A DNA stretch of 21,183 nt from a virus, in IMG/VR virus record IMGVR_UViG_3300025065_000259, positions 1 through 21,183 of that record. One strand, written 5' to 3'. The position numbers and the translations under genes are program-made. Shown in pieces: positions 1-15,712 of the stretch. How positions within the stretch are numbered: position 1 is the first letter of the stretch; each line of letters begins with the position of its first letter. A model generated the notes under the pieces. That model saw only the letters and a program-made list of their open reading frames with translations, made no database searches and was not told the DNA's origin.

Positions 1-761
1 TTTTTCCCGCCTCGTTGGGGCGGTGATGTGTTCAGGATCCCAACCACCCTAACTTTATTACCTGGCTGTAAGGTTCCACACAAATTCCCATCCAACCAAC
101 AATATATATGATCTGGTTGGCAACCAGTCTTGACTTTATCCAGATGTTCCTCAATCGTTATCATCTGGGTCATCCAGGATATAGTCATCTCGGGAATTTC
201 CTTGAAGAATGTTGAACTCGCAAGCCTCTGACATCCAGGACATTCGAGAGGTTTAATCTTTCGGAGATATTCTTGCTTAATTGGGAATATTTCTTGACAT
301 CGACCACAATGATAGGCGATCTTATGTGCTCTATTACCAACCTTATGTATCTGTTTTATCGTCCCCTGGAATGATAAAAGTTGGCATTGCTTCAATTTCC
401 ATATTTTTGGAATGGTTGTTTTAATCATTGATACTATCGTTTTGCCGGAATTATCCAGATATACATAGGGTTCGGGCGAATGATGTTCTGGGATTTCATT
501 CTCAAGCAACCACTCCTTTATTCGACCCATTACAATTTTTCTGATGATCCGAATATGTTTAATGGGGTTTTTGATAATGTAGTAAAATAATTCTTCATCA
601 AAGTTCAGAATATCCATCAACCTTATCGAAAGGTGATCGAACTCCTCCATCATTTTTGACCGGATGATCGTGTCATATTTACCTCTGCTCCCATCGTCTT
701 GATTCCAATTACAAATAAACCTTCGCCACAATTCTTCAACTTCGGCGGAGTTATATTTCAT
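1..761 (-). CDS. mcm: MCM replicative helicase, N-terminal part (cut by window edge)
   Basis: Reading the minus strand from an ATG at 761 gives an uninterrupted frame of about 253 residues running off the left edge. It matches the N-terminal half of archaeal/eukaryotic MCM helicases: an N-terminal helical region with a YYIIKNP segment, then an OB-fold with a CX2C...CX2C zinc finger (C152, C155, C174, C177), a Q-M-I-T-I-E-E strand corresponding to the family's 'QxIxIQE' strand, and PGNKVRVVGIL corresponding to 'PGDRVxVTGIL'. MCM is the hexameric 3'-5' helicase that unwinds DNA at archaeal replication forks. The AAA+ ATPase half lies outside the window, so activity cannot be judged. It starts 3 nt after the upstream gene (765-1106), so the two form an operon. 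A virus-borne MCM would let the element replicate partly independently of its host. Family assignment is from recognisable motifs, not a search. Confidence 0.85.
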   Translation of the reverse strand, partial: MKYNSAEVEELWRRFICNWNQDDGSRGKYDTIIRSKMMEEFDHLSIRLMDILNFDEELFYYIIKNPIKHIRIIRKIVMGRIKEWLLENEIPEHHSPEPYVYLDNSGKTIVSMIKTTIPKIWKLKQCQLLSFQGTIKQIHKVGNRAHKIAYHCGRCQEIFPIKQEYLRKIKPLECPGCQRLASSTFFKEIPEMTISWMTQMITIEEHLDKVKTGCQPDHIYCWLDGNLCGTLQPGNKVRVVGILNTSPPQRGGK

Positions 762-764
762 CAA

Positions 765-1106
765 TCAATCATTCCCCTTGATGATAAAAGGAAGCATATT
801 CATTAGTCGTTCCATTGCCCCTTCATTTGGATTAGAGCTCAAGAAGGATTTCAATCGTTCCAATATGGCACTTCCCTGGGGATTTTGTGTTCTCAAATAT
901 TCTACGAGATATTCAATCATCTTTTCTGTTTCTGAAACCTTCTCTTCAAATTCTTGCTTGTAGAGTTTCAAATTCAACTCCTTCCATCCCATCAAAGGAT
1001 GAGCATTGTATATATCCTCTATCAACTTTATTTCTCCATCCGTTAAGTCGCCAAAACGGATGGTATAATTATGTCCCTTTATCTTCAATATTCTTCTTTT
1101 TGCCAT
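765..1106 (-). CDS. Small hypothetical protein co-transcribed with MCM
   Basis: A 113-residue protein. I chose the ATG at 1106 because AGGTGA sits 5 nt upstream of it on the minus strand; a GTG at 1115 would add three residues but overlaps that ribosome-binding site. The N-terminus is very basic (MAKRRILKIKG), followed by a predicted mostly helical, acidic body with an FEEKVSETEKMIEYLVEYL helix and a C-terminal helix rich in Met. No family is recognised; there are no Cys motifs, signal peptide or membrane segments. It ends 3 nt before the MCM start, so it probably belongs to the replication module, for example as a helicase accessory or DNA-binding protein, but that is only inferred from position. 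Confidence 0.7.
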   Translation of the reverse strand: MAKRRILKIKGHNYTIRFGDLTDGEIKLIEDIYNAHPLMGWKELNLKLYKQEFEEKVSETEKMIEYLVEYLRTQNPQGSAILERLKSFLSSNPNEGAMERLMNMLPFIIKGND

Positions 1107-1218
1107 TTTTTTCACCTTTGTTTACTTTTGGGTCATCTACCCTAAGTTATCATTTGGATTTTAGGGCTCATATCAAAATATTCATATATGGTATGACAAA
1201 ATACACTAATATGTTCAT

Positions 1219-1228
1219 AATATATAAA
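1219..1228 (-). promoter_or_regulatory. Possible archaeal TATA box for the minus-strand operon
   Basis: On the minus strand this reads TTTATATATT, a good archaeal TATA-box match. Transcription would start near 1195, giving a leader of about 90 nt before the ATG at 1106. That leader contains a 6-bp inverted repeat, CCCTAA (1140-1145) with TTAGGG (1161-1166), spaced by 15 nt, which could be an operator or a small hairpin. In an A+T-rich gap such matches arise by chance, so confidence is low. Confidence 0.35.
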
Positions 1229-1242
1229 TGTTGTTGTGTTAT

Positions 1243-1379
1243 TTTACATTCATTCATTTTACTTAGAATTTGTACCCCTATATAATAATAATTATTTTTT
1301 TCTCTAATAGTAATAAATATATATATAGATATATATTCTTATAGGGGTACGTTTTCTGAGAAATATAAATGAATGTAAA
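1243..1379. repeat. Concentric inverted repeats around an A+T-rich core (candidate replication origin or divergent control region)
   Basis: Two perfect inverted-repeat pairs share the same centre, position 1311: TTTACATTCATT (1243-1254) with AATGAATGTAAA (1368-1379), and GTACCCCTATA (1272-1282) with TATAGGGGTAC (1340-1350). Between the paired units the arms also match well, so the full arms 1243-1282 and 1340-1379 pair at 33 of 40 positions. The enclosed 57 nt contain only five G/C bases. The structure lies between the divergent MCM operon and the plus-strand array. An easily melted core flanked by mirrored elements with G-runs, next to a helicase gene, is the arrangement expected of an archaeal-type origin. 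It could equally be mirrored operator/promoter elements for divergent transcription. No initiator gene is visible. Confidence 0.6.
1362..1371 (+). promoter_or_regulatory. Possible TATA box driving the structured RNA
   Basis: AAATATAAAT lies within the right arm of the inverted repeat, preceded by a purine-rich CTGAGA. An archaeal start site about 25 nt downstream would fall near 1391, just where a stable hairpin and the foldable segment begin. The agreement of spacing with the RNA's 5' end is suggestive but not proof. Confidence 0.35.
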
Positions 1380-1390
1380 TAAATTTAAGT

Positions 1391-1560
1391 GCCCTCTTTC
1401 TTCGCCGAAGGGGAGGAAAAGGTTTTTCAAAAACAAAAAGCGGGCTTGATAACTAGGAAGAAAATAGAGGATGGAAACAACAAAACCATCCTCCGAAGAT
1501 ATCACAAGGGGAGGTTATCGGTGGAAACGACGGGAGTTACCAAGCCCGATAAGAATGAGG
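1391..1560 (+). ncRNA. Candidate structured RNA, unknown family
   Basis: This segment has no convincing protein but unusually strong pairing. A 5' hairpin forms from CCTC(T)TTCTTC (1393-1403) with GAAGGGGAGG (1407-1416). A small GTTTT/AAAAC hairpin follows (1422-1434). A long-range stem pairs CGGGCTTG (1441-1448) with CAAGCCCG (1541-1548), continues after one A-C mismatch with TAACT/AGTTA (1450-1454 and 1535-1539), and encloses a perfect 8-bp hairpin GAGGATGG/CCATCCTC (1467-1474 and 1486-1493) with an A-rich 11-nt loop, plus a weaker GATA/TATC helix (1498-1501 and 1516-1519). It is locally much richer in G and C than the flanks. It does not fit a tRNA, RNase P RNA, SRP RNA or a riboswitch I know. 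It could be a viral regulatory RNA, a ribozyme or a replication-control RNA. Confidence 0.5.
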
Positions 1561-1568
1561 GGGAAACT

Positions 1569-1578
1569 TGTATATATT
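1569..1578 (+). promoter_or_regulatory. TATA box of a leaderless promoter for the ribbon-helix-helix gene
   Basis: TGTATATATT, preceded by the purine-rich GGGGAAAC (like an archaeal BRE), is centred about 26 nt before the ATG at 1600. No Shine-Dalgarno sequence precedes that ATG. In archaea a TATA box at this distance places the transcription start on or next to the start codon, so the mRNA should be leaderless. Confidence 0.55.
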
Positions 1579-1580
1579 AT

Positions 1581-1600
1581 TATTGTCATTATTGACAATA
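1581..1600. promoter_or_regulatory. Palindromic operator between TATA box and start codon
   Basis: TATTGTCA (1581-1588) and TGACAATA (1593-1600) form a perfect 8-bp inverted repeat with a 4-nt spacer, ending on the A of the ribbon-helix-helix start codon. It sits exactly where a bound repressor would block transcription from the TATA box at 1569-1578. Ribbon-helix-helix proteins bind such palindromes as dimers, so autoregulation by the adjacent gene is the simplest reading. Binding itself is inferred. Confidence 0.55.
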
Positions 1601-1722
1601 TGAAAACAATACATCTGGAAATAAGGGAGGACATTGTGCAAAAATTGATGACGCTCAAACGACCGAGAGAATCATATTCAAATGTGATACAAAGATTGTT
1701 GGAGGGATTTTATCGGGTATAA
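1600..1722 (+). CDS. Ribbon-helix-helix protein, archaeal VapB/UPF0330-like
   Basis: A 40-residue protein starting MKTIHLEI. It has an alternating N-terminal strand (KTIHLEI), helix 1 (REDIVQKLMTLK) and helix 2 (ESYSNVIQRLLEG), the layout of ribbon-helix-helix DNA-binding proteins. The LKRPRESYSNVIQRLLEG stretch closely resembles the archaeal VapB antitoxin family (UPF0330 type). No VapC PIN-domain toxin follows, so here it is more likely a stand-alone regulator of the virus. A longer in-frame reading from 1471 is rejected because it would run through the structured RNA. The gene probably controls its own leaderless promoter through the palindrome ending at its start codon. Confidence 0.75.
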   Translation: MKTIHLEIREDIVQKLMTLKRPRESYSNVIQRLLEGFYRV

Positions 1723-1822
1723 ACGGATCTGTGTCAAGTGCGGTGAGAAATTTGTATCTGGAGGAACAAAGGAATGTCCTTACTGTGAAGATGGCGGGCA
1801 TGTCATAGATATTAGGGTGTGA
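1712..1822 (+). CDS. Small zinc-ribbon protein with no canonical start codon
   Basis: The frame is open from 1688 to the TGA at 1820-1822 and encodes a tight zinc ribbon: ICVKCGEKF...ECPYCEDGG, with CX2C and CX2C knuckles 13 residues apart. There is no ATG, GTG or TTG in the open stretch. A strong GGAGGG (1701-1706) precedes ATC at 1712, which is the most plausible initiation point given the spacing; that start is uncertain. It overlaps the end of the ribbon-helix-helix gene by 11 nt and is followed 4 nt later by the next gene. The Cys pattern argues for a real protein, perhaps a nucleic-acid- or protein-binding adaptor. A sequence error or a -1 frameshift from the upstream gene are alternatives. 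Confidence 0.5.
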   Translation: MGYKRICVKCGEKFVSGGTKECPYCEDGGHVIDIRV

Positions 1823-1826
1823 TACG

Positions 1827-1964
1827 ATGAACCATGAGCATCGAAAACGGTTAACAGATGAGATACGAGCATTGCGGGATCCATATGGTCATACGCCGAC
1901 CAGAGAAATTATAGATATAATCCGGAGAGAAATTCGGATGGCAAAAGGATCTGACGAAGGATGA
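1827..1964 (+). CDS. Small basic hypothetical protein (45 aa)
   Basis: A short protein starting MNHEHRKRLTDEIRAL with a good ribosome-binding site (AGGGTG, 7 nt upstream). It is highly charged and basic, probably two helices separated by the PYGHTPT turn, with REIIDIIRREIRMAK as the second helix. The family is not recognised. It fills the gap between the zinc-ribbon gene and the ParB-like gene and is in the same orientation, so it is probably co-transcribed. A small DNA-binding role would fit its charge but is not shown. Confidence 0.55.
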   Translation: MNHEHRKRLTDEIRALRDPYGHTPTREIIDIIRREIRMAKGSDEG

Positions 1965-1979
1965 GAGGAGGGAAATACA

Positions 1980-2459
1980 ATGGAAATAGTATACAAGAAA
2001 ATATCTGAACTTAAACCCTGGGACCGTAATCCCCAGCTCCATAATGAGGTTGCAATATCGAAGAGTATAGAACGTTTTGGGTTCAGGGCCCCGATTATTA
2101 TACAGAAAGGAACAGGGAGAATTATCTCCGGACATGGTCGAATAAAAGCACTTAAAATGATAGGGAAAGAAGAAGTGCCATGTATCGAGTGGGATGTCAC
2201 GGACGAGAATGAGATGAAGGCATACACCATCTTGGATAATTCCCTCACAATATTTCCTGGGATGGATGAAGATATACTGGGTGAACTGGTTAGAGAGCTT
2301 GATAATGAAATGGAAGATTTCAATTTAGATATATTGGGATTTGAAGGAGATAAATTAAAGGAGTTACTTGGGAAAATTGAGATTGAAATATTTGAACCTG
2401 AATATGATGAAAATATGGAGACAGAAAATGAATGTCCAAAATGTGGATTTAAATGGTAG
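1980..2459 (+). CDS. ParB/sulfiredoxin-fold nuclease-like protein with C-terminal zinc knuckle
   Basis: A 159-residue protein with a strong GGAGGG site upstream. The N-terminal 100 residues carry the ParB-N fold features: I-SELKPWDRNPQ, then the AIIIQ/GRIISGHGRIKAL block with the GHGR motif at residues 51-54, which binds nucleotide or DNA in this superfamily. A helical segment follows, and the C-terminus ends in a CX2C knuckle (C152, C155). Phage ParB-like proteins are commonly encoded next to or fused with DNA methyltransferases and may nick DNA or help select sites. Here the methyltransferase gene starts inside the end of this one, overlapping by 32 nt, which strongly links the two. It is not a plasmid-partition ParB: there is no HTH domain or ParA partner. 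Confidence 0.75.
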   Translation: MEIVYKKISELKPWDRNPQLHNEVAISKSIERFGFRAPIIIQKGTGRIISGHGRIKALKMIGKEEVPCIEWDVTDENEMKAYTILDNSLTIFPGMDEDILGELVRELDNEMEDFNLDILGFEGDKLKELLGKIEIEIFEPEYDENMETENECPKCGFKW

Positions 2460-3420
2460 GCCTACAGTAATATCATTATTTGCTGGATGCGGAGGATCTT
2501 CTCTCGGTTATAAAATGGCAGGATATAAAGAACTTCTTGCTATTGAATGGGATGATAATGCGATTGAAACCTTTAAACTAAATTTTGATTCACCTATCGA
2601 AAAATGGGATATTCGAGAACTTGTGGGACAGAAAGTATTGGATTATTGTAATATAAAGAAAGGAGAACTTGATCTTTTAGATGGGTCTCCACCATGTCAA
2701 GGATTTTCAACGGCGGGAAAACGAAAAGTATCTGATATTCGTAATGATCTTGTAAATCATAATATCCGATTAATTGATGAGATTCAGCCGAAAGTATTTG
2801 TTATCGAGAATGTTTCTGGAATGGTCAAAGGAAAGATGAAAGGATTATTTATCGAATATATGAAGAAAATGAAATCTATGAATTATGTTGTAAAATGTAA
2901 ACTTTTGAATGCAATGTATTATCAAGTTCCACAATCACGACAAAGGTTAATATTTATGGGTGTAAGAAAAGATTTAGACAAAGATCCGAGTTATCCAATA
3001 CCGAGTAAGAAAATAATAACAGTTAAAGAAGCATTAAAGAATATTCAGAATAATATCTTACCTCCATTGTTATCAAACTTTGTAAAAAATTACGTTCCAA
3101 AAATGAAAATGGGTCAGAATTTAAACGATGTGGGATATAAGGGAGGATTTCAAACAAAAAGGATTAATTCCCGTTATCCATCACCGACATTGACGAAAAT
3201 AATAGGAGGCATAGGTTTTGGTCATCACATTCATCCATATGAAGATAGAGTATTATCAATTTCTGAATTAAAGAGATTACATACCTTTCCAGATAATTTT
3301 AAATTCATTGGAAAATATCAAATTAAATCAGCAAGAATTGGAAATTCCGTGCCGCCTTTAATGATGAAGGCAATTGCATTAAGAATAAAAAAGGATATAT
3401 TAATGGTGGAAAAATGGTAA
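2428..3420 (+). CDS. DNA (cytosine-5) methyltransferase
   Basis: The 330-residue product transfers a methyl group from SAM to C5 of cytosine in DNA. All core motifs are present in order: motif I SLFAGCGGSSLGYKMAG (FAGCGG at 17-22), motif IV DGSPPCQGFS with the catalytic Cys at 90, motif VI ENVSG, motif VIII QSRQRLIF, a short target-recognition region, LSISELKRLHTFPDNF, and motif X IGNSVPP. I chose the ATG at 2428 because a purine-rich GGAGACAG lies upstream; the same frame is open back to 2368. No restriction endonuclease partner is visible, so it is probably an orphan enzyme that protects viral DNA or marks it for further modification by the radical SAM enzyme downstream. Target sequence unknown. 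Confidence 0.92.
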   Translation: MNVQNVDLNGRPTVISLFAGCGGSSLGYKMAGYKELLAIEWDDNAIETFKLNFDSPIEKWDIRELVGQKVLDYCNIKKGELDLLDGSPPCQGFSTAGKRKVSDIRNDLVNHNIRLIDEIQPKVFVIENVSGMVKGKMKGLFIEYMKKMKSMNYVVKCKLLNAMYYQVPQSRQRLIFMGVRKDLDKDPSYPIPSKKIITVKEALKNIQNNILPPLLSNFVKNYVPKMKMGQNLNDVGYKGGFQTKRINSRYPSPTLTKIIGGIGFGHHIHPYEDRVLSISELKRLHTFPDNFKFIGKYQIKSARIGNSVPPLMMKAIALRIKKDILMVEKW

Positions 3421-4667
3421 AACCTGTTGGAATATTATTGTTCACTCATCCTGATACCATTAAGGTATATCGTGAGAATACAACAAATTATTCTTTCGAC
3501 AATAAAAAGGGTGGTGGCATAAAGAAAGTCATATCTGAACTTGAGGTTCCATATGAGTTTTGTTCGCATAGTACAATGGGTAATTATGATGATGTGATAT
3601 GTTCATTGACTTCCTTTAATGATGTGTTAAACTTAGTCATAAATGTTCCTAATAATCTGAAAAATACTCGGATACATATCGGTGGCCCTGCATGTAATAA
3701 TATTCGTCCCATAATTCCATATATTTATTCGGCAAATTTTGGAAGATGTGATGAGGGAAAAATAAACAAAATATTGAATCATGAACCATTAAAGTCAGTT
3801 TGGTATAAAGATGAAGATCCCGATTTTTCAGGAGAATATGAGGTTGATACGTCCTCAGTTAAAGGATTAGGTGATAATGAACGTTCTTTTGGATGTCCCC
3901 AAAAATGTGCTTTTTGTTTTTATTCTCACTGGAATGGTTATAGAACAAAGGGAAAGGGTAGTCATTATGGGTCAGGTATTGAATATGAAGAAGATTTCTT
4001 TCAGTGTTTGGATTGGCCCAAAATAGATAAGTCTCGATATGGCTTAACGGCACTTGACGGGGTAACCGAAGAAACAAGATCGAGGGTACATAAGAAAATA
4101 ACAAGACAAGATATAAAGGATACATTATTGAGATCGAATGAAATAGAATCAGAAAAAGGGTTCAGATTGAAGATATATTTAATTGTGGGGTACCCTTGGG
4201 AAAATAAAGATGAATTAGATAAATTTGATTTGCCTATAATATTCAAGGAAATAGAGGACAATCTCATAAATAAGTTTACAGTAAGATTACAGATTTCTCA
4301 TTTCATTCCATTCCAAAAAACACCCTTGTGGAATGTTCCATTCAATTTCTATAATTATCGTAAATGGGCAAAATCACATCCGAGATTATATGATAGTCAG
4401 AAAGTGAGAGTTTTCTCTGGAGTAGGAAATCCATCCCCTGCATTGGCAGGAACAAGTACTATACTTCAACGAGCATGGAATGATGATACGGATGTAATAC
4501 GACTTTTGGCTACAAAGAAGTTTAGACGAATGAAAGTATCTCAACAATTGAGTATAATGAGAAGGAATTTCAATCGTTTTTTTGTGGAACAAAATGTAGA
4601 AACCATCAAAAACATAATTACTCCGAATAAATATGATAAGATTATCTGGAGGGACAAAAACAAATGA
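3414..4667 (+). CDS. Radical SAM protein, B12-binding-like N-terminal region
   Basis: A 417-residue protein with the radical SAM 4Fe-4S motif C161-X3-C165-X2-C168 in GCPQKCAFCFYS. Upstream, residues 80-120 (RIHIGGPACNN... ANFGRCDEGKIN) resemble the end of the cobalamin-binding Rossmann domain found in class B radical SAM methylases, although the usual DxHxxG signature is not evident. Downstream, a RVHKKITRQDIKDTLLRSNE segment and KIYLIVGYPWE (about 252-263) follow the family pattern. It overlaps the cytosine methyltransferase stop by 7 nt, so the two are coupled. The substrate is unknown. By position it may act on the methylated cytosine or another base of viral DNA, or it could modify a tRNA or protein. 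Confidence 0.8.
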   Translation: MVKPVGILLFTHPDTIKVYRENTTNYSFDNKKGGGIKKVISELEVPYEFCSHSTMGNYDDVICSLTSFNDVLNLVINVPNNLKNTRIHIGGPACNNIRPIIPYIYSANFGRCDEGKINKILNHEPLKSVWYKDEDPDFSGEYEVDTSSVKGLGDNERSFGCPQKCAFCFYSHWNGYRTKGKGSHYGSGIEYEEDFFQCLDWPKIDKSRYGLTALDGVTEETRSRVHKKITRQDIKDTLLRSNEIESEKGFRLKIYLIVGYPWENKDELDKFDLPIIFKEIEDNLINKFTVRLQISHFIPFQKTPLWNVPFNFYNYRKWAKSHPRLYDSQKVRVFSGVGNPSPALAGTSTILQRAWNDDTDVIRLLATKKFRRMKVSQQLSIMRRNFNRFFVEQNVETIKNIITPNKYDKIIWRDKNK

Positions 4668-4969
4668 TATTCTACAACCTTCTACCTTCTCATATCAAGA
4701 TTCTGCTCTGCATTAACAAACCAATTGGGTTCAAGGAACTTGTAGAGAAGACAGGATATTCATTCGCCATGATTTATTCTCATTGCACGAAACTGAAAAA
4801 TGAAGGTTTGATAAAATATGTGAAGGACGGTAGGGGTTGCAAATGTCGTCCATATACGAGAGTAGCACCAACCATTTTATCTATATTCATCAAGATCAAT
4901 CATCAGGGATTAACGATGATTGAGATAATAAGAGAGAACGGACAGAAGGAACGATATAGGGTGTGTTGA
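4664..4969 (+). CDS. Winged-helix transcription regulator
   Basis: A 101-residue protein with one winged helix-turn-helix domain: a helix with KILLCINKP, then IGFKELVEKTGYSFAMIYSHCTKLKNEGLIKYVK, typical of MarR/ArsR-like domains, followed by a wing containing GRGCKCRPYTRV. A CKC pair in the wing could bind metal but is too little to call a sensor. The start overlaps the radical SAM stop as ATGA, so its level is tied to that gene. It probably regulates viral transcription; its operator is not identified. Confidence 0.7.
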   Translation: MIFYNLLPSHIKILLCINKPIGFKELVEKTGYSFAMIYSHCTKLKNEGLIKYVKDGRGCKCRPYTRVAPTILSIFIKINHQGLTMIEIIRENGQKERYRVC

Positions 4970-4970
4970 T

Positions 4971-5528
4971 ATGGGATTTAAAAAGTTTTCACCTGTTCAA
5001 TTTGGACAGAAATATCTTGAAGCACTTGATAAAGGAATCATCCAAAAAGTCGATATTATCAAGTATATGAAGATTTCATCTGCGACATTTTACGCGTATT
5101 GGAAGGATCCTGATTATCGCGCTCAAACTGAAAACAAAATAGATAAATATGAAAATAAGGTAAAAGGTCTGAAATTAGGAACAAATCATAGGGAAAAAAT
5201 CATTGAAACCGCGTATCGTCTTCATGAACAAGGGATTGCGAAAGCACTTTCTCAAAAAAGTTGGGCGAAGGCAAGGAGGATTTCAATCGATGCATTGAAA
5301 ATATGCAAGACGGAAATGGAGATTGAAAGAATATTTATCGTAATGGGAAATATGAATGTCTCAAATACGGTGAGCAATACCCAAATAAATATCACACAGG
5401 AGCGTTTAGATATAGCATCAGGACTTTTGGAGATAGTTAGGGGTACTTTGCTATCAGAATTGAACGAAGAGGTCGCAGATCGGTTGTATGGAACGATTCT
5501 AACGAGATTGAAGGCGATGAGGGAATGA
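4971..5528 (+). CDS. HTH protein, possibly the small terminase subunit
   Basis: A 185-residue protein. Residues 15-55 look like a homeodomain-type helix-turn-helix (IIQKVDIIKYMKISSATFYAYWKDPDYR), as in phBC6A51-type small terminases. The middle is helical and basic. A segment near 125-135 (MNVSNTVSNTQINITQ) is followed by a C-terminal helical part suited to oligomerisation. Small terminases recognise the packaging site and load DNA onto the large subunit. The large subunit is about 10.5 kb downstream, an unusual separation that weakens the call. An alternative is a DNA-binding regulator. The gene starts 1 nt after the winged-helix gene and its stop overlaps the next start. Confidence 0.45.
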   Translation: MGFKKFSPVQFGQKYLEALDKGIIQKVDIIKYMKISSATFYAYWKDPDYRAQTENKIDKYENKVKGLKLGTNHREKIIETAYRLHEQGIAKALSQKSWAKARRISIDALKICKTEMEIERIFIVMGNMNVSNTVSNTQINITQERLDIASGLLEIVRGTLLSELNEEVADRLYGTILTRLKAMRE

Positions 5529-7366: not shown

Positions 7367-7813
7367 ATGATGGGAAATATCATGTCAATATTGAAAAACC
7401 CTGAGAAATGGGTTATGTCGAAATTATTATCCGTACTGAATAACAAGAAGTTCCAGCAAGATATTTTTTGGGTAATTAAGACGAGATTCCTTGAGAATGA
7501 GGAATTTCGCAAAAAGATATTTGGTATGATTGAGGAGGAACTCAATAAACCAGATATGGCCAAAGAATTAAGAAAAATGGTCGAAATATTGGGTATCGTC
7601 GAAACAGTAAAAAAGGATATTATAACTCCTCAATCTGACCATGTAGAGATAATCAATTTATTGGATACGATAAATGAAAATACAGATGAGATGATAGAAC
7701 GAATAAATCAAATAGAAGATGATTTAGATAGTTCTAATATTCGAATGGGAGATATACAGAAAGTTCAGAGAGAATTAACTGATGAGATATTATGGGAGGA
7801 TGGTGGGAAATGA
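7367..7813 (+). CDS. Coiled-coil hypothetical protein
   Basis: Begins at ATG 7367, directly after the cysH stop, with AGGTGAA upstream, and encodes 148 residues. The N-terminal 60 residues are basic/hydrophobic with repeated short units (FWVIKTRFLENEEFRKKIF); the C-terminal half (HVEIINLLDTINENTDEMIE and what follows) has heptad-like spacing of hydrophobics and looks like a coiled coil. No family, signal peptide or membrane segment. It precedes the glycosyltransferases and overlaps the first by 4 nt, so it may be a scaffold or partner in the glycan island, but that is position only. Confidence 0.6.
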   Translation: MMGNIMSILKNPEKWVMSKLLSVLNNKKFQQDIFWVIKTRFLENEEFRKKIFGMIEEELNKPDMAKELRKMVEILGIVETVKKDIITPQSDHVEIINLLDTINENTDEMIERINQIEDDLDSSNIRMGDIQKVQRELTDEILWEDGGK

Positions 7814-8883
7814 AGAGGATAAATTTGGCAATTGCTCAACAGACAATGAGGATAAGGACTGAGAAGGAATTATTGGCAATAGTGGATGATTCTCGAATTG
7901 GTGAGATAATAATGTTCGTCGAAAAGCGGAATGAGAAAAAAGATAAATATAGATGGAGAGATAAAAAACGAATTACATATTATCCAATCGAGGCGATGGA
8001 TCGAGTGGCAAAAATACTTGAGAAACATAAAATTGATATTGTCCATACCCATAATTTTCCCGACAAAATTGGGAAATATTTCATTGGAATAAGAGATAGT
8101 AGGAGATTTAATTCGAAATATAATTTGAATTTCAAGGTGGTTCATGAAGTACATGATACGGGATGGTTTTATACCGAAATGGGACACTATTCCAATCGAA
8201 AAATGAAAGTTCGGCATGATGAGAAATATGTAATGCAAAAATCGGATGGATTGGTTTTTTGTTCTGAAACACAATTGATGTTTTTGTGGGGAAAATATGA
8301 GTTTCCATATAATCGAGGGATAATAATTTATCCTTCGGCATCTAAATATCATGTTCCATCAATGATAAAAAAACCAAAGAATAAACAATTGACATTAGTT
8401 TATTGTGGAAGTTTGGGAAATGATATGGGGGATTATCGATTAATCTTTAAGGATTTACTCGATAAAGGGTTTAAGATTGTAATTTATACATCTCGTCCAG
8501 GGGTTTCAGCGCAATATGAAGATGAAGGGATTGAGATAAGATCAGAATGGCGATATAGAGAAATGTTGAAAGACCTTTCAAAAATGGATGGAGGAATTAT
8601 TCCGGACTATAATGGAAGAAATATTCAGTATTATACAATATTTGGAAATAAATTATGGGATTATTTGGGGGCGGGTATTCCTATCGTATACCATCAGTAT
8701 TGCCCCTGGATGATGAAAAATTTTGTCCGATGTGAGAGAGTTGGGTATTCATTCGATGAAATAAATTCTATCAATATAAAATCAGCAAGAGCAAGAGTGC
8801 AAAAACATCGAGATAAATATCTTATGGAAAACAACATCAATAAACTGATAAAATTATATTATGACGTAATAAAGAGGAAATAA
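7810..8883 (+). CDS. GT-B fold glycosyltransferase (GT4-like)
   Basis: A 357-residue protein beginning MKRINLAIAQ at an ATGA overlap with the preceding stop. It has the two-domain layout of GT4 enzymes: an N-terminal acceptor domain with DIVHTHNFPDKIG, then a linker and the nucleotide-sugar domain with LTLVYCGSLGND and NKLWDYLGAGIPIVYH (KLWDYL at 281-286), the counterpart of the family's 'K/E-x-EYLAAG-PVV' segment. No membrane anchor. It opens the glycan island and ends 1 nt before the next gene. Donor and acceptor cannot be told from sequence. Confidence 0.8.
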   Translation: MKRINLAIAQQTMRIRTEKELLAIVDDSRIGEIIMFVEKRNEKKDKYRWRDKKRITYYPIEAMDRVAKILEKHKIDIVHTHNFPDKIGKYFIGIRDSRRFNSKYNLNFKVVHEVHDTGWFYTEMGHYSNRKMKVRHDEKYVMQKSDGLVFCSETQLMFLWGKYEFPYNRGIIIYPSASKYHVPSMIKKPKNKQLTLVYCGSLGNDMGDYRLIFKDLLDKGFKIVIYTSRPGVSAQYEDEGIEIRSEWRYREMLKDLSKMDGGIIPDYNGRNIQYYTIFGNKLWDYLGAGIPIVYHQYCPWMMKNFVRCERVGYSFDEINSINIKSARARVQKHRDKYLMENNINKLIKLYYDVIKRK

Positions 8884-8884
8884 G

Positions 8885-11041
8885 ATGGATCCTAAACAAT
8901 TTCTGGAACAATTTCCTTTAGATGAGCGATTTAATGATATTATATGCGTAAGTCAAACAACAAATTTCGGATGGAGGGTTGGAAATACACTTGGAATAAA
9001 ATGGGTTGGATGTATGGAACGGTTCCAACAAGAGAAGAAGGGGGATAACTTTGCGATACTTTTTTGGATGGGACCTACCAAAAATGCGTTTTTGAGATCG
9101 TTGGATTATCTGAATGAGATAAGGAATAAGGGCAAAAAGATTATTATCTATTTCATTGGAAGCGAGATGAATACATATGATGGTGATTTCAAGATTGTTA
9201 ATGATAATGTGGATTTGATATTATGTGAAGAACATTTTATTCAAGAAAAATTCAATGTTCCAACTGATATATTGCGAATATGTCCAGAAAATTTACCGAA
9301 ATATAAGAAGAAGTTAGGGAATAAAATTATAACATATCTGCCGCTTACAACTGATGGGAATTTGGTGAGAGAAAAACGAATATATGACCATTATCGATAT
9401 GAATGGATTGTAAAATTGGCGAAGGATTATCCTAATGAAGAGTTTCGGATATTTGGTCGGAACAATAAATACAAAAAAATATTATCGAATTTGATAAATT
9501 TGGGTGAGCTCACAGAAGATGAGAAGAATGATTTATATTATGATTCTAAAATATTTTTACGATTAACGAAAACAGATGGGATGCCATTCACAGTAATTGA
9601 GTTTTTGGCGAGGGGAGGGATGGTATATTTTACTCAAGTTCATCATTTAACGAATTATATTACATCCTATAAAGAATTGAAAGAGGAATTTGAAGAAGGG
9701 AGAAAAATTAAAACAAAATATAAATCTATATCTGATTTAATCCATGACCAATATAATTTAAAGAGATGTCGAGATGATTTTTTTTCAGTCATTAATCAGA
9801 TAAATTTGCGAAGGTATTGGGAAGGTCGAAAGGAAAGATATATTATGGTTCATCAGAATATTTCTATGGATAAAAATAGGGTTTGGTTAAAGAAAAAATT
9901 AGAAGAATACGGGTATACGAATATTATGGAATTGGGATGTGGGACGGGTTCGGGGTTTGGAGTATATAATCAAATGCAAAATGTATTAGCGGTGGATTTT
10001 GTGGATGATTTTATTAATATTGCCAAAACAAATATTAAAACAAGGAACATAAAATGTCAAGTGGCGGATATAACCCAACGAGATATATGGCAGAAAACAG
10101 GATTGATTACATCATGTGTTTGCCTTCAATATATCAGAGAAAGAGATATTGGACGAGTGATAAAAAATATTACGAATAATTGTCAATGTGCCATAATAAT
10201 TGAGAAGGTGAAAGGTGGAGAGAGTGAGTATTACTGGAATCATGATTATATTTCATTGTTTGAGAAGAATGGATTTATACTTGAATATGAAGAGCGTGGA
10301 GGACACCCGAATACAAAAAGAATGATCTTTCGGAAAAAGATAGATGTTACAATTACAACTGTAACCTGTCTTGATAATCGACAAAGAAGGAAATGGTTGA
10401 AGGAATGTATTGATTCGGTATCCAAGCAAAAGGGGTTAGAGTTTGAATATATAATTGTTGATAATGGTTCTACATTCAATATTCCACATGAATGGTTAAT
10501 TTGTCCATTTATCCGATATTATAAAAGTGAGAAAGCACATAGGGGAAAATCTGCGAATTTCTCGATACAAAAAGCATTTGGAAAATATAGGTGTGGTGTT
10601 GCGGATGATGATTTTTTGATTGGGGATGATTCACTTTCTATAAGATTTAAGATGATGGAAGATAATCCTGATGTAATATTGGGGTGGACAAATGGATACA
10701 AAGTTAATGAAGATAGATCGAAACGAATAAGAGAATTTCGGGATCCAGTGAGGATTAATTCAAGTGAACTTTTAAAACGTGGTGGGTTGATCAATGGTAC
10801 AACTTCGATAGTGAAAACAGAATATTGGCGAAAATTTCCATTAAATGAAAAATATACAACAGCAGAAGAATATGATTTCCAGATACGATTGGCGAAATGG
10901 GTCGAGCAAAATGGGAAGATATTCAAATATTTCTCTCAATATTATACCGCGGCGAATCGAGAACATAAAGGAAGATGTTCATCGAATTTGACGAAAGTTC
11001 AGAAAAAACAAAGGAGGCAAATTGTTGAACGAAATTCGTGA
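8885..11041 (+). CDS. Three-domain fusion: GT-B glycosyltransferase, SAM methyltransferase, GT-A glycosyltransferase
   Basis: A continuous 718-residue frame with three units. Residues 1-310 resemble a GT-B (GT4-like) enzyme, with IIIYFIGSEMNTYDG, FRIFGRN and KTDGMPFTVIEFLARGG. Residues about 315-475 are a class I SAM-dependent methyltransferase: NIMELGCGTGSGF (GCGTGSG at 351-357) and AVDFVDDFINIA. Residues about 476-700 are a GT2-type GT-A domain: VTITTVTCLDNR, EYIIVDNGST (VDNGS 535-539) and the metal-binding DDD (574-576) in GVADDDFL, followed by EYDFQIRLAKW. Such an enzyme could build and cap a methylated oligosaccharide in one polypeptide. The first GT lacks some N-terminal acceptor-domain features and could be degenerate. 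Its end overlaps the next gene. Confidence 0.8.
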   Translation: MDPKQFLEQFPLDERFNDIICVSQTTNFGWRVGNTLGIKWVGCMERFQQEKKGDNFAILFWMGPTKNAFLRSLDYLNEIRNKGKKIIIYFIGSEMNTYDGDFKIVNDNVDLILCEEHFIQEKFNVPTDILRICPENLPKYKKKLGNKIITYLPLTTDGNLVREKRIYDHYRYEWIVKLAKDYPNEEFRIFGRNNKYKKILSNLINLGELTEDEKNDLYYDSKIFLRLTKTDGMPFTVIEFLARGGMVYFTQVHHLTNYITSYKELKEEFEEGRKIKTKYKSISDLIHDQYNLKRCRDDFFSVINQINLRRYWEGRKERYIMVHQNISMDKNRVWLKKKLEEYGYTNIMELGCGTGSGFGVYNQMQNVLAVDFVDDFINIAKTNIKTRNIKCQVADITQRDIWQKTGLITSCVCLQYIRERDIGRVIKNITNNCQCAIIIEKVKGGESEYYWNHDYISLFEKNGFILEYEERGGHPNTKRMIFRKKIDVTITTVTCLDNRQRRKWLKECIDSVSKQKGLEFEYIIVDNGSTFNIPHEWLICPFIRYYKSEKAHRGKSANFSIQKAFGKYRCGVADDDFLIGDDSLSIRFKMMEDNPDVILGWTNGYKVNEDRSKRIREFRDPVRINSSELLKRGGLINGTTSIVKTEYWRKFPLNEKYTTAEEYDFQIRLAKWVEQNGKIFKYFSQYYTAANREHKGRCSSNLTKVQKKQRRQIVERNS

Positions 11042-11552
11042 TACATCAATAATATATAATGATGTGAAAATTGGTGATGGAACGAGAATATTTGATTTCT
11101 CGGTGATTCGGGAAGGATGTAGGATCGGAAAGAATTGCACGATCGGGAATCATGTTCGGTTGAATGGAGAATGTATAATCGGAGATGATACAACTATCAC
11201 CTGTGGAGTTCATCTTTCAAGAATGACGAAGGTGGGTAAGAATGTTTTTATTGCTCCAGGAACTGTTGTAGCAAATACGAGACAGTTGAAATGTCAACAT
11301 AAAGAATCATGCGATAATATGGGATGTGTGTCTCCGGTTATGATAGGAAATAATGTTAAGATAGGAATTAACTGTACAATATTGGCGGGGGTGACAATTG
11401 AAGATAATGTATTGATAGGAGCGGGAAGTTTGGTGACAAAAGATGTTCCAGAAAATATTTATGGGTTTGGTTCTCCATTTCGAGATATGGGGGATATTCG
11501 AGATTTGAAATGTAAGGACACAGGCAAATTATTATATGGAGGCATAAGATGA
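11025..11552 (+). CDS. Hexapeptide-repeat acyltransferase (WbpD-like)
   Basis: A left-handed beta-helix protein of about 175 residues. The start is TTG; AAGGAGG at 11011-11017 favours the TTG at 11025, with 11022 as alternative. Repeats of the form [LIV]-G-x4 run throughout (VKIGDGTRIFDFSVI, CRIGKNCTIGNHV, CIIGDDTTI, KVGKNVFIAPG, VMIGNNVKIGINCTI, VLIGAGSLVTKDVPENIYGFGSP), matching N-acetyltransferases of amino-sugar nucleotides such as WbpD. It contains an interruption with CQHKESCDNMGC, a Cys-rich insertion at the loop where metal or acceptor binding could occur. Likely N-acylates the amino sugar made by the DegT aminotransferase. Confidence 0.82.
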   Translation: MNEIRDTSIIYNDVKIGDGTRIFDFSVIREGCRIGKNCTIGNHVRLNGECIIGDDTTITCGVHLSRMTKVGKNVFIAPGTVVANTRQLKCQHKESCDNMGCVSPVMIGNNVKIGINCTILAGVTIEDNVLIGAGSLVTKDVPENIYGFGSPFRDMGDIRDLKCKDTGKLLYGGIR

Positions 11553-12295
11553 ATTGCATTGATTCCCATGTCTTTATAATTCCTGAAGGACAATATGATA
11601 ATATCTCATATTCATTAGAAGAAATAAAATTTAAATACAAATATATCCCGATTGTTCTGATGCAAGGGATAATAACAGAAACGGATTCGATCTTATCCAA
11701 TAGAAATTTTTTGGATTCAATTAAAGGGATTAATAATTTTTATCCGTTTGTATTCCTCCATCCACTTGAAAAGAAACATTTCAAGAAACTTTTTTATGAT
11801 TATAAAATATACGGTATAAAACTTCATCCAAGTATAAGTCAGGTTCGAGTAAACAGTATGCAATTCAAACCTATATTGGAATTTGCTGATAAACAAAATT
11901 TGCCTGTACTGATTCATTGTGGAAGGAATATTAAGAGCAGATTTAGGTATATTATTAATATATTGGGAAAATATAATAATCCCTTTATTGTGGCCCATCT
12001 TGGAGGAATTGCCACTGAACTGATAATGAAAACGCTTAAACAGGTTAAAGAAGAAAATTTATTGGAACGGTTTCCGAATCTATATTTTAATACTTCATCT
12101 ATCTATAATCCAAAATTATTATCTCATGCAATAGATATTTTGGGGCATGATAGGGTCATATTTGGGTCAGATGAACCATTTCATGATTTTGAAGCACAAA
12201 TGATGATATTGAAAAAAGTATTGGATGATGAAGAATCAAAGGAAAAAATATTTTATTCGAACATGAAGAAACTATTGGATGGTGTTATAATATGA
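11549..12295 (+). CDS. Amidohydrolase-2-like metal-dependent hydrolase with altered first motif
   Basis: A 248-residue TIM-barrel protein. Strand-end motifs of the amidohydrolase superfamily are present: GIKLHP (H93), PVLIHCGR (H123), IVAHLGG (H150) and VIFGSDEPF (D208), with NMKKLL near the end. The first motif, normally DxHxH, is DSHVF (residues 5-9), so the second metal-binding His is replaced by Phe. It may use a single metal, or another ligand, or may have lost hydrolase activity. In this island it could hydrolyse an amide or acyl group on a sugar intermediate. Starts and ends with 4-nt overlaps. Confidence 0.75.
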   Translation: MNCIDSHVFIIPEGQYDNISYSLEEIKFKYKYIPIVLMQGIITETDSILSNRNFLDSIKGINNFYPFVFLHPLEKKHFKKLFYDYKIYGIKLHPSISQVRVNSMQFKPILEFADKQNLPVLIHCGRNIKSRFRYIINILGKYNNPFIVAHLGGIATELIMKTLKQVKEENLLERFPNLYFNTSSIYNPKLLSHAIDILGHDRVIFGSDEPFHDFEAQMMILKKVLDDEESKEKIFYSNMKKLLDGVII

Positions 12296-13365
12296 TACCA
12301 TTAACCCGCCCATATTTCACGGTTCGAGAAAAAGAGATTGTAAACAATATTTTGGATTCTGGATGGTTGACAGGGGGAAAATATACCAAGATATTTGAAG
12401 ATCAGGCAAAAGAAATTATGGGATATAAATATGCCTGTGCAGTAAATTCATGTACTTCTGCATTATTTCTTTCGATTAATGCACTTGCTCTGGAACAAAG
12501 AAGTGAGATAATCGTTCCATCTAATACTTTTATTGCTACAGTTAATTCTATATGTTTAAATGGGCATATTCCGATATTCTGTGATATTGATAAAAATGGA
12601 ATGATGGATTTAAAATCGGCAGAGAAAGTATTGAGCGAAAAAACAATGGGAATAATTCCCGTTCAATATGCGGGACAGTTATTTGATATTGATAAATTAA
12701 TGGATTTTTGTTGTTTTCACGATTTGGAAATGATTATGGATTCTGCTCATTCTTTTGGTTCTCCTCAATATGGTTTATGGGGGTCAGAATGTTTCTCCTT
12801 CCATAATACAAAGAACTTCTCAACGGGTGAGGGTGGAATGATAATGACCAATCAGAAATGGTTATATAATGCAGTTAGATGTTCAAGACAGCATGGATTA
12901 GAGATTGAGAAGAATGGGATAATAAAAAATTATATACTTCAATGGCCAGGATATAACATGAGAATGACGGAACTTCAGGCAGGATTGGGATTAACTCAAA
13001 TAGATAAATTGAAAACAATTAAGGAAAAAAGATATTCAATCTATAAAAAATATAAGGAGGCATTTGGGGATTTGATTCCATTATCTGAAGAGCAAGGAAT
13101 GAATTACCATATAATACCTTTATTGGTATCTGAAGATAAACGGGATGAGATAAGGAAACAATTATGGAAATTGGGCATTCAGACAAATATTCATTATAAA
13201 CCATGCCATACATATGATTTTTATAATAATTCATTACATATTCGAACGGATTTATCAAGATCGGAGGAATGGGGTAAGAGGGAAATAACGATTCCATTTT
13301 ACACAGATATGGAAGATACTGATATTGATTATGTGATTGAACGAGTATTGGAGGTTATTATATGA
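12292..13365 (+). CDS. DegT/DnrJ/EryC1/StrS sugar aminotransferase
   Basis: A 357-residue PLP-dependent aminotransferase that converts a keto-sugar nucleotide to an amino sugar. Family landmarks: SGWLTGGKYTKIFE near the start, AVNSCTSALFLS, VPSNTFIATVNSI, PVQYAGQ, MIMDSAHSFGS (Asp150 for the PLP ring), and SFHNTKNFSTGEGGM with the Schiff-base Lys174; GYNMRMTELQAGLG follows. The usual active-site residues are intact and length is normal for the family. Its partner should be the LegB-like dehydratase encoded next, whose product is its likely substrate. Confidence 0.92.
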   Translation: MIPLTRPYFTVREKEIVNNILDSGWLTGGKYTKIFEDQAKEIMGYKYACAVNSCTSALFLSINALALEQRSEIIVPSNTFIATVNSICLNGHIPIFCDIDKNGMMDLKSAEKVLSEKTMGIIPVQYAGQLFDIDKLMDFCCFHDLEMIMDSAHSFGSPQYGLWGSECFSFHNTKNFSTGEGGMIMTNQKWLYNAVRCSRQHGLEIEKNGIIKNYILQWPGYNMRMTELQAGLGLTQIDKLKTIKEKRYSIYKKYKEAFGDLIPLSEEQGMNYHIIPLLVSEDKRDEIRKQLWKLGIQTNIHYKPCHTYDFYNNSLHIRTDLSRSEEWGKREITIPFYTDMEDTDIDYVIERVLEVII

Positions 13366-14333
13366 CAATATTGATAACTGGATCAGAGGGATTTATTGGG
13401 TCTCATCTCGTTGAATTTTTATTGGATAATCATCATGAAAACGTTATTGCATTGGTCAAATATAATTTTCAAAGCGATATTGGCAATATGAGATATATTA
13501 AAAATTTGGATGATTATCAGCGACATAGGAGATTGGTACAATATTTTGGATATACAAATGATTATATTTTTCTGGATAAATTATTTGAGGAAAGAACAAT
13601 AACAAAGGTTTATCATTTGGCTTCAAATGTATCTGTTCCATATTCATTTCAATCAGCAGAAGATTATATTCAATCCAATATTAAAGGAACTTATAATATA
13701 GCAAAACTATGTAATAAATATCAAGCAAAATTAATTCATATCTCATCATCAGAAGTTTATGGAAATCCTGAATATACTCCGATAGATGAAATACATCCCT
13801 ATAATCCACGTTCACCTTATGCCGCTTCCAAGATTGCTTCAGATATGTTTGTTCTTGCGGAAATAAGACAGGGATTAGATGCTTGTATCGTTAGACCTTT
13901 CAATACATTTGGTCCGAGACAATCGGCGAGGGCAGTTATACCCTCCATCATATCACAATATTATTTGAATAATAAATCGATCATGATGGGGAATCTTAAA
14001 TCTATTCGAGATTTTAATTATATTGATGATACAATTAAAGGTATTTATCTTGTGGGACAGAAAGGAAGAGTGGGAGAAATTTATAATATTGGTTCAGGGG
14101 AAAAATATTCGATGGGAGATATTCCACATCTTATCTTTCGGGATTGTGAGATTATCGTATCCAAAGAAAGATTAAGAAGAAGGGCAGAACTTCAAGAACT
14201 TCATTGTAATTATTTCAAGGCAAATGAAGAATTGGGATATTCTCCAGAAATAACTTTCAAAGATGGTTTAAAATTAACAAATAAATGGATTAAAAAACAC
14301 ATTGATAATTTTGATTGGAGGTATGTTTTTTGA
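13362..14333 (+). CDS. LegB-like nucleotide-sugar 4,6-dehydratase (SDR family)
   Basis: A 323-residue extended SDR enzyme. The NAD-binding TGSEGFIGSHL (6-16) is present, with HLASNVSVPYSF, SSSEVYG and the catalytic Y153-X3-K157 in SPYAASK. The stretch RPFNTFGPRQSARAVIPSII is a strong signature of the LegB group, which makes 4-keto-6-deoxy amino-sugar nucleotides in legionaminic-acid-type pathways. It would feed the adjacent DegT aminotransferase and the acyltransferases to give an N-acylated 4-amino-4,6-dideoxy sugar. No neuraminic-type condensing synthase is in the window, so the final product is probably the amino hexose rather than legionaminic acid. Overlaps both neighbours by 4 nt. Confidence 0.85.
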   Translation: MTILITGSEGFIGSHLVEFLLDNHHENVIALVKYNFQSDIGNMRYIKNLDDYQRHRRLVQYFGYTNDYIFLDKLFEERTITKVYHLASNVSVPYSFQSAEDYIQSNIKGTYNIAKLCNKYQAKLIHISSSEVYGNPEYTPIDEIHPYNPRSPYAASKIASDMFVLAEIRQGLDACIVRPFNTFGPRQSARAVIPSIISQYYLNNKSIMMGNLKSIRDFNYIDDTIKGIYLVGQKGRVGEIYNIGSGEKYSMGDIPHLIFRDCEIIVSKERLRRRAELQELHCNYFKANEELGYSPEITFKDGLKLTNKWIKKHIDNFDWRYVF

Positions 14334-14977
14334 AGGCTTCCATTATCGTTCCTTGCTATAACGAGGAAGGAAATATTGGAAGGATGGTTAAACAATTATT
14401 GGAGTTGTATCCCGAAGATCAAATAATAGTTGTATTGGATGGATGCACAGATAAATCACTTAATGAAATCAAAAAGTATAAAGATAAAATAATAATAATT
14501 GAGAATAAATTGAGAGTAGGGAAAACCGAAAGTATTATCGGGGCGATTGATATATCCCATAATCCTCTCATTGTTTTCATTGATGCAGATTTTCAATATA
14601 ATCCAGAAGATATAAAGAAGATGAAAAAACGATGTGAACGATATGATATAGTTGTTGCAGATCGATATGAAGGAGAAGGACCAAAAGAATTGATGTTGAT
14701 CCGAATCCTTATTTTCTGTTTCAGAAAATTACATGGAATAAAAATTAAAGATATTCAGGCAGGGTTTAAATGTGTTCAACGAGATAAAATTAAAGATATA
14801 GAATTTGAATCTGATGATTTCATATTTGATCTTGAGTTATTGATAAAATTGAAAGAAAATGGATGTTCAATAAGAAGTATTCCTATAATATGTAAAGAAC
14901 GAGAGATCGGAGAAAACAAATATAACAAACAATTCCTTATGTTCTGGAAGATGTTAAAGTATATGATAAAAAGGTGA
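14330..14977 (+). CDS. GT2 family glycosyltransferase (dolichol-phosphate-mannosyltransferase-like)
   Basis: 215 residues from a TTG start at 14330, chosen because GGAGGT (14317-14322) is 7 nt upstream and because TTGA overlaps the preceding stop. The GT-A fold is clear: ASIIVPCYNEEGNI, QIIVVLDGCTDKS, RVGKTESIIGAI, VFIDADFQY (DAD at 85-87), then DIQAGFKCVQRD and an FDLELLIKLKENG segment, all as in DPM-type GT2 enzymes. There are no C-terminal membrane helices. Acceptor unknown; presumably a lipid- or protein-bound glycan. Confidence 0.85.
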   Translation: MKASIIVPCYNEEGNIGRMVKQLLELYPEDQIIVVLDGCTDKSLNEIKKYKDKIIIIENKLRVGKTESIIGAIDISHNPLIVFIDADFQYNPEDIKKMKKRCERYDIVVADRYEGEGPKELMLIRILIFCFRKLHGIKIKDIQAGFKCVQRDKIKDIEFESDDFIFDLELLIKLKENGCSIRSIPIICKEREIGENKYNKQFLMFWKMLKYMIKR

Positions 14978-14981
14978 AACA

Positions 14982-15437
14982 ATGTTAAGAAGCGGAGTAA
15001 ATCTGAAAATAGGACAGTACAATGTCATTGACAACATAACTGTTGGTGATGATTGTATAATAGGGAATTTTTGTGAAATACACGAAGGAGTTATTGCAGG
15101 AAATAAAGTCATATTTCAAGGCATGAACCGAATTGCTCCCAACTGCAAGATTGGGAATAATGTTACCTTCAAATATGGAACGATACTGACTACGGGCGTG
15201 AAAGTGGCGAATAATGTTTTCTTCGGTCCTCATTCGGTTGTATTGGGTGGATTGGCAAATAGGAAAACGAAATATGGAACGAGGATAGGGAAGAATTGTT
15301 ATATTGGAGCAGGTACGAAGTTGAAGGCAGGAATCAAGATATGTCCTGATGTCATAATCGGGGCGAACTCATTTGTAGATCGAGATATAACCGAGAAAGG
15401 AACTTACGTGGGATGTCCGGTCCGGAAGGTGAAATAA
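14982..15437 (+). CDS. Second hexapeptide-repeat acyltransferase
   Basis: A 151-residue beta-helix protein with a GGTGAAACA ribosome-binding region. Hexapeptide units run from residue 8 to about 130 (LKIGQYNVIDN, CIIGNFCEIHEGV, CKIGNNVTFKYGT, VKVANNVFFGPHS, TRIGKNCYIGAG, VIIGANSFVDRDI) and end with YVGCPVRKVK, the usual GxPAxxx tail. Distinct from the enzyme at 11025: shorter and without the Cys-rich insertion. Two acyltransferases suggest two acylation sites, for example a diacylated sugar. The last gene of the glycan island. Confidence 0.8.
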   Translation: MLRSGVNLKIGQYNVIDNITVGDDCIIGNFCEIHEGVIAGNKVIFQGMNRIAPNCKIGNNVTFKYGTILTTGVKVANNVFFGPHSVVLGGLANRKTKYGTRIGKNCYIGAGTKLKAGIKICPDVIIGANSFVDRDITEKGTYVGCPVRKVK

Positions 15438-15712
15438 TGGGGAGAAAATATGAGGCACAAGATAAGGAGATGGATTTCTGTTTCATTTGTGAATACAAAA
15501 ATATTCCTGATGAAGAAGAACCATGCAATGAATGTAAATTAAAGAGGCCAACAAAATTCAAGACGAAAGAGCTGAATGCTGGTGAAGTTTGGGATTCATT
15601 GGATATATTATATAATTCCATTCCGAAACCAACGGGAAGGAAATTTTTAATTCTATGTCAGATACAATCTTTCTTATATGAAGAGATGCAAAAAGAGGAG
15701 GCGAACGAATGA
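15437..15712 (+). CDS. Small zinc-finger-like protein (91 aa)
   Basis: Starts at 15437, overlapping the preceding TAA as TAATG, with GGTGA upstream. A four-Cys motif, C15-X2-C18-X11-C30-X2-C33, in DFCFICEYKN...PCNECK should bind zinc. The rest is basic then helical. No family recognised. Ends with a 4-nt overlap to the next gene and sits between the glycan island and the terminase, so it may belong to either block. Confidence 0.6.
   Translation: MGRKYEAQDKEMDFCFICEYKNIPDEEEPCNECKLKRPTKFKTKELNAGEVWDSLDILYNSIPKPTGRKFLILCQIQSFLYEEMQKEEANE

Follow-up and report, generated by a model that had tools for sequence, protein, structure and literature searches.

A candidate replication origin with paired arms around an A+T-rich core beside the MCM gene of a putative archaeal virus

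In the oriC1 origin of Haloarcula hispanica, which has been dissected experimentally, inverted boxes lie on either side of an A+T-rich region; G-strings and a G-rich inverted repeat within the origin are further features (PMC3936714). The genomes of Thermococcales viruses, described in a 2026 preprint, contain neither Orc1/Cdc6 nor classical ORBs, so their origin recognition must differ from that of the host; in most of their MCMs there is an additional DNA-binding domain at the N terminus, for which the authors suggest a role in origin recognition (PMC12934983). Halovirus BJ1 also brings its own MCM (PMC2194725). A search of the open literature returned no description of a class of paired elements linked to mcm, although such an absence is not proof of novelty.

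Here we analysed a linear IMG/VR contig of 21,183 bp (the window), in which a sequence-only reading had proposed a bidirectional origin with paired initiator sites beside a viral MCM gene. Similar to oriC1-type origins with inverted ORBs (H. hispanica, PMC3936714; Methanomassiliicoccales, PMC4153887), the element is single and compact and lies near replication genes; its inverted boxes, which end in G-runs, surround an A+T-rich region, and a G-rich inverted repeat is present within. It differs in that its arms lack the TTCCA–GAAAC dyad, the G-runs stand at the inner end of each 40-nt arm, and it adjoins mcm rather than cdc6; a search of the virus for orc1/cdc6 found none. The virus shares a virus-encoded MCM with the Thermococcales viruses and BJ1; however, its MCM has an ordinary N terminus and is preceded by a separate small gene instead. 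On balance, we favour the reading that the element is a virus-specific replication origin of a non-ORB type that overlaps divergent promoters.

An inverted repeat around an A+T-rich core

The element consists of a left arm (positions 1243–1282, + strand; outer segment TTTACATTCATT, inner segment GTACCCCTATA) and a right arm (1340–1379, − strand; TATAGGGGTAC ... AATGAATGTAAA on the + strand), which are complementary at 33 of 40 positions and separated by 57 nt, with the centre at 1311. Only 5 of the 57 nt in this core (1283–1339) are G or C, making it 91% A+T, compared with an average of 63% in the flanks (500 nt on each side); it is a candidate DNA-unwinding element. CCCC (1275–1278, + strand) borders the core on the left, at −36 from the centre, and GGGG (1344–1347, + strand) on the right, at +33. 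Recounting upheld the arm and core figures of the sequence-only reading. Its two ‘concentric’ pairs, an outer 12-bp and an inner 11-bp segment without mismatch, do share the centre at 1311, but they belong to one long imperfect repeat and are not two coincidences. Mismatches fall at 1255, 1258, 1261, 1264 and 1269–1271. The spacing of every third base to which the reading had drawn attention is real (chance of 0.6% for this spacing and 2.5% for any equal spacing) but uninformative, because the gap is non-coding.

Scored at +1 for a match and −2 for a mismatch, the repeat reaches 19, against a mean of 9.4 and a maximum of 15 in 2,000 dinucleotide shuffles of the surrounding 355 nt (1116–1470); no other inverted repeat in the window exceeds 11. 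Within the window, the inner unit TACCCCTATA is confined to the two arms, once in each direction as previously stated; it is also present once per strand in each of two near-identical contigs, G001 and G002. G002 offers no further good match to either half of an arm. The outer 12-mer alone has one additional exact copy, at window position 15527.

Genes and signals around the element

The element occupies a gap between divergent genes. To the left, a gene cut by the window end (3–764, − strand) encodes the N-terminal part of a viral MCM helicase, in which MCM_N and MCM_OB exceed the Pfam cut-offs. The full-length protein has 689 amino acids (G002:20061–22130), and the MCM_N match at residues 11–103 indicates, as far as Pfam matches go, an N terminus with no extension. 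The element had thus been rightly placed beside MCM, with one gene standing between them: that of a 113-amino-acid helical protein (765–1106, − strand), the first of the leftward pair with MCM. This small protein has no Pfam match; it matches L026:3268–3624 (E = 6e-7), and a low-confidence structure model, based on a two-sequence alignment, is mostly helical (pLDDT of 67). The first rightward gene (1600–1722, + strand) encodes a 40-amino-acid ribbon-helix-helix-like protein of the VapB antitoxin family (PF02697, 29.0 bits, just above the cut-off of 27.9), and a ParB-like protein is encoded after it in the same direction. By eye, we noted what could be an archaeal TATA box serving the leftward operon of the small gene and MCM (TTTATATAT, 1216–1228, − strand) and a possible BRE/TATA for rightward transcription within the right arm (GAAATATAAATG, 1360–1371, + strand). 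The promoters of both gene blocks are likely to coincide in part with the element.

Right of the element, a non-coding stretch (1380–1600) is strongly structured, folding well on both strands (RNA fold z = −4.1 on + and −4.5 on −). It contains a long-range stem (GCGGGCTTGATAACT/AGTTACCAAGCCCG) and a GGATGG/CCATCC hairpin, and matches no Rfam family; it may be a leader, a small RNA or a secondary structure of the DNA.

The host of the virus appears to be archaeal, judging from MCM and its comparison with the MCMs of haloviruses and methanogen viruses. The contig is that of a tailed virus, and one long block between the early genes and terminase (7792–15437) contains, on reading the translations, glycosyltransferase-like, sugar aminotransferase/epimerase-like and acyltransferase-like genes.

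Near-identical contigs

In IMG/VR, this MCM is found only in G001 (25.9 kb) and G002 (39.7 kb), which are 99.93% alike across the shared 25.9 kb. The element is unchanged in both (22609–22745 in G002); these contigs provide no conservation test because not one base changes over window positions 1–4327. Searches of IMG/VR for close relatives with the N-terminal part of MCM, the full MCM, the small protein and the arm pattern each returned G001 and G002 only, and a scan of genome contigs with the full MCM gave a single, unrelated match; an alignment search contributed just one more contig, the more distant G003.

The window (1–5330) aligns to G002:21367–26695 with zero differences over 4,327 bp, followed by gradual divergence over about 1 kb and a loss of similarity after 5330, beyond which the two differ in their terminase and portal genes. 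This boundary may reflect a recent exchange of modules between viruses or an assembly chimera.

Other features of G002 (L009) deserve mention. At 13390–13904, and partly in G001, around 14 consecutive stem-loops run through two successive small reading frames; many are perfect stems of 7–15 bp, each different in sequence, at a spacing of roughly 35–50 nt. The RNA fold of 13260–13980 has −270 kcal/mol, versus −152 when shuffled (z = −22). The array, which is absent from the window and from the more distant relative G003, looks extraordinary and unexplained. The second divergent gap of G002 has a short 11-bp inverted pair (TACAATAGTAA, 13293–13338), and one more half-site (CAATAGTA), the third, is located at 13179. 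The pair, whose score is attained in about 10% of shuffles, resembles an ordinary operator. A further inverted pair in G002 (12709–12818/14641–14751) was rejected as an origin, as by eye it represents paralogous small zinc-ribbon genes on opposite strands.

The geometry recurs in a distant relative

An alignment search identified 34 further viral MCM loci. The closest is G003 (31.2 kb), the MCM of which is 32% identical to that of the window virus over the whole alignment and 38% over the best segment. A homologue of the small gene directly precedes MCM in this genome (E of about 6e-7), and its genes also form two divergent blocks, the gap between which carries an inverted repeat (10174–10292) with an A+T-rich core, near the cumulative GC-skew minimum (9483) and with mcm 2.4 kb downstream. 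The sequence-only reading had suggested a search of relatives for the same element near mcm; what recurs is the geometry, whereas the arm sequence of G003 is unrelated to that of the window. The C-run and G-run are at −36 and +33 from the centre in the window and G002, and at −36 and +32 in G003, and the A+T-rich core between them measures 62–65 nt in both elements. On its own, the G003 repeat has a modest score, equalled in 3 of 500 shuffles, and G003 is the sole distant instance of this geometry; it is the coincidence of position and geometry that carries weight.

In viral MCM contigs totalling 717 kb, counting copies, a C-run followed by 50–80 nt of at least 82% A+T and then a G-run occurs in three places only (window/G002, G003 and L058), and the control with the runs in reversed order occurs in none. 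L058:151–217 was not accepted as a third element, given that it has no arm repeat and its GGGG looks like a ribosome-binding site. Searching IMG/VR for the G-rich inverted pattern gave 46 stretches, with an A+T-rich core only in G003 and L145; the latter adds no support, as it is a 99.7% copy of G003 on a contig that ends within 100 bp of the element.

Inverted pairs near mcm in other viruses

Strong inverted repeats (score of at least 16) are present in 7 of 39 viral mcm zones (−800 to +50 of the gene; the window is included) but in only 3 of 314 controls, which were other 850-nt windows of the same loci (Mann–Whitney p = 3e-6, an optimistic value because some mcm loci are near-duplicates). 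The BJ1-like haloviruses (L022, L025, L075–L089 and L094) have a near-perfect inverted pair before mcm, for example GTTTTATCCCGAAAATAAAAC, with arms of 17–31 nt that are 186–211 bp apart from centre to centre; most pairs are centred about 115–133 nt before mcm. Over 16 loci, similarity between arms averages about 96% inside one genome and 49% across genomes, which is a sign of co-evolution with one binding protein. The arm is present exactly twice in BJ1 and MFTV1, and the complete genomes of BJ1 and HJTV-4 were found to contain no third good copy. Outside the BJ1-like group, Methanocaldococcus fervens tailed virus 1 and L054 have similar pairs, lying −0.8 to −1.0 kb from mcm. No such mcm-proximal pair is present in HFTV1, HSTV-1 or HRTV-29. 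Ribbon-helix-helix domains were suspected by eye in small genes that precede mcm in other viruses, but Pfam did not confirm them. Upstream of the mcm gene of plasmid pMEFER01 (L097:802–844/1620–1662), 43-nt near-perfect inverted arms are 818 bp apart.

The halovirus pairs (BJ1, HJTV-4, Humcor1 and IMG/VR relatives) resemble the window element in having long, near-perfect inverted arms beside mcm. With twice the arm spacing and spacers that are hardly more A+T-rich than their flanks, they may nevertheless be a different type of element, or mcm operators. We tentatively suggest, at a confidence well below that for the window element itself, that the mcm-side pairs of many MCM-encoding archaeal viruses are origins that rapidly changing, virus-specific initiators recognise, in place of host-type Orc1/Cdc6 boxes. 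Such a class would have a single element per genome, with arms that co-evolve within a genome and differ between genomes, and two or more geometries: one with an arm spacing of about 95 bp and an A+T-rich core bordered by a C-run and a G-run, and another with a spacing of about 195 bp.

Origin boxes and GC skew

The features that the element has in common with ORB-type origins are the A+T-rich unwinding region (91% versus 63%) and the inverted boxes flanking it (33/40). The arms do not contain the TTCCA–GAAAC dyad followed by GGGGT, and none of nine published ORB motifs (PMC4164010, PMC4153887) scores above background in them. The best hit to one ORB consensus lies in the structured stretch (1515–1537, 16/23) and was discarded, being no better than hits elsewhere in G002. 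No match to TIGR02928 (Orc1/Cdc6) was found in G001, G002 or G003, records that may be incomplete; BJ1, by comparison, encodes its own Orc1/Cdc6 homologue, and several haloviruses with pairs encode Orc1-like proteins. A virus without orc1/cdc6 could borrow the host protein. The sequence-only reading had suggested a test for binding by host Orc1/Cdc6; recognition through a standard box is unsupported because the arms match no published ORB motif above background.

GC skew, which that reading had proposed as a check, does not provide independent evidence, because it follows the gene strand. The detrended minimum of G002 (22772) adjoins the element; however, every skew switch in G002 coincides with a switch of gene strand, with local minima of the cumulative skew at both divergent points and maxima at both convergent points. 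In BJ1, the detrended minimum is far from the repeat.

Origin, operator or neither

A bidirectional origin with paired sites is the best-supported interpretation, because G003 shares the geometry and viral mcm genes are enriched for upstream inverted pairs; standard Orc1/Cdc6 boxes and independent proof from GC skew are the unsupported parts of the original proposal. The origin would sit in the gap between the two divergent early gene blocks of the virus. Both arms would be binding sites for one sequence-specific protein acting pairwise, and its binding may cause melting of the A+T-rich core within the C-run and G-run borders, and the virus’s own MCM may then be loaded outward in both directions. 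Two proteins are candidates for this role: the 113-amino-acid product of the gene preceding MCM, and the ribbon-helix-helix-like product of the first rightward gene. Given that MCM has no N-terminal extension by Pfam match, a separate small protein is the natural candidate.

The main rival, which we regard as plausible but less likely, is a divergent operator: a regulator (for example, the ribbon-helix-helix-like protein encoded at 1600–1722) would bind both arms, which are 97 bp apart and possibly looped, to control the small gene–MCM operon and the rightward block, and the core would be two promoters. The location between divergent genes, with TATA-like stretches at or near both arms, agrees with this, as do the nature of the first rightward gene and the overlap of the halovirus pairs with the mcm start region, which is common for operators. 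Against it, the arms are long (40 nt), their inner unit is found nowhere else in the genome and further copies at other promoters of G002 are missing, the one extra outer 12-mer in the window notwithstanding. Moreover, the possible TATA boxes are placed asymmetrically with respect to the two arms, the short pair and third half-site in the other divergent gap of G002 are more operator-like, and G003 keeps the geometry of C-run, core and G-run despite the distance to its mcm. In archaea and viruses, origin and operator functions can share one stretch of DNA, and we regard such sharing as likely here.

It is improbable, in our view, that the element has no function of its own and is either mobile and MITE-like or a product of template switching that left an inverted duplication. 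Terminal inverted repeats of 40 nt around a 57-nt interior do resemble a small MITE, and the mismatch pattern is odd; yet G002 has no second copy, IMG/VR has it only in the near-identical contigs, the ends show no clear target duplication and G003 has the same geometry with a different sequence. Although A+T-rich intergenic DNA yields many weak palindromes (ten more were listed), a chance product of base composition is highly improbable, as none of 2,000 composition-matched shuffles reaches the score and the inner and outer segments, which carry G/C, contain no mismatch.

The replication start sites of archaeal viruses that bring their own MCM are largely unmapped. The element is small and well bounded, is present once per genome and has a geometry that recurs in a distant relative; it offers a concrete piece of DNA for cloning and testing. 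The mcm-linked inverted pairs of cultivable haloviruses (BJ1, HJTV-4 and Humcor1) open the idea to laboratory testing.
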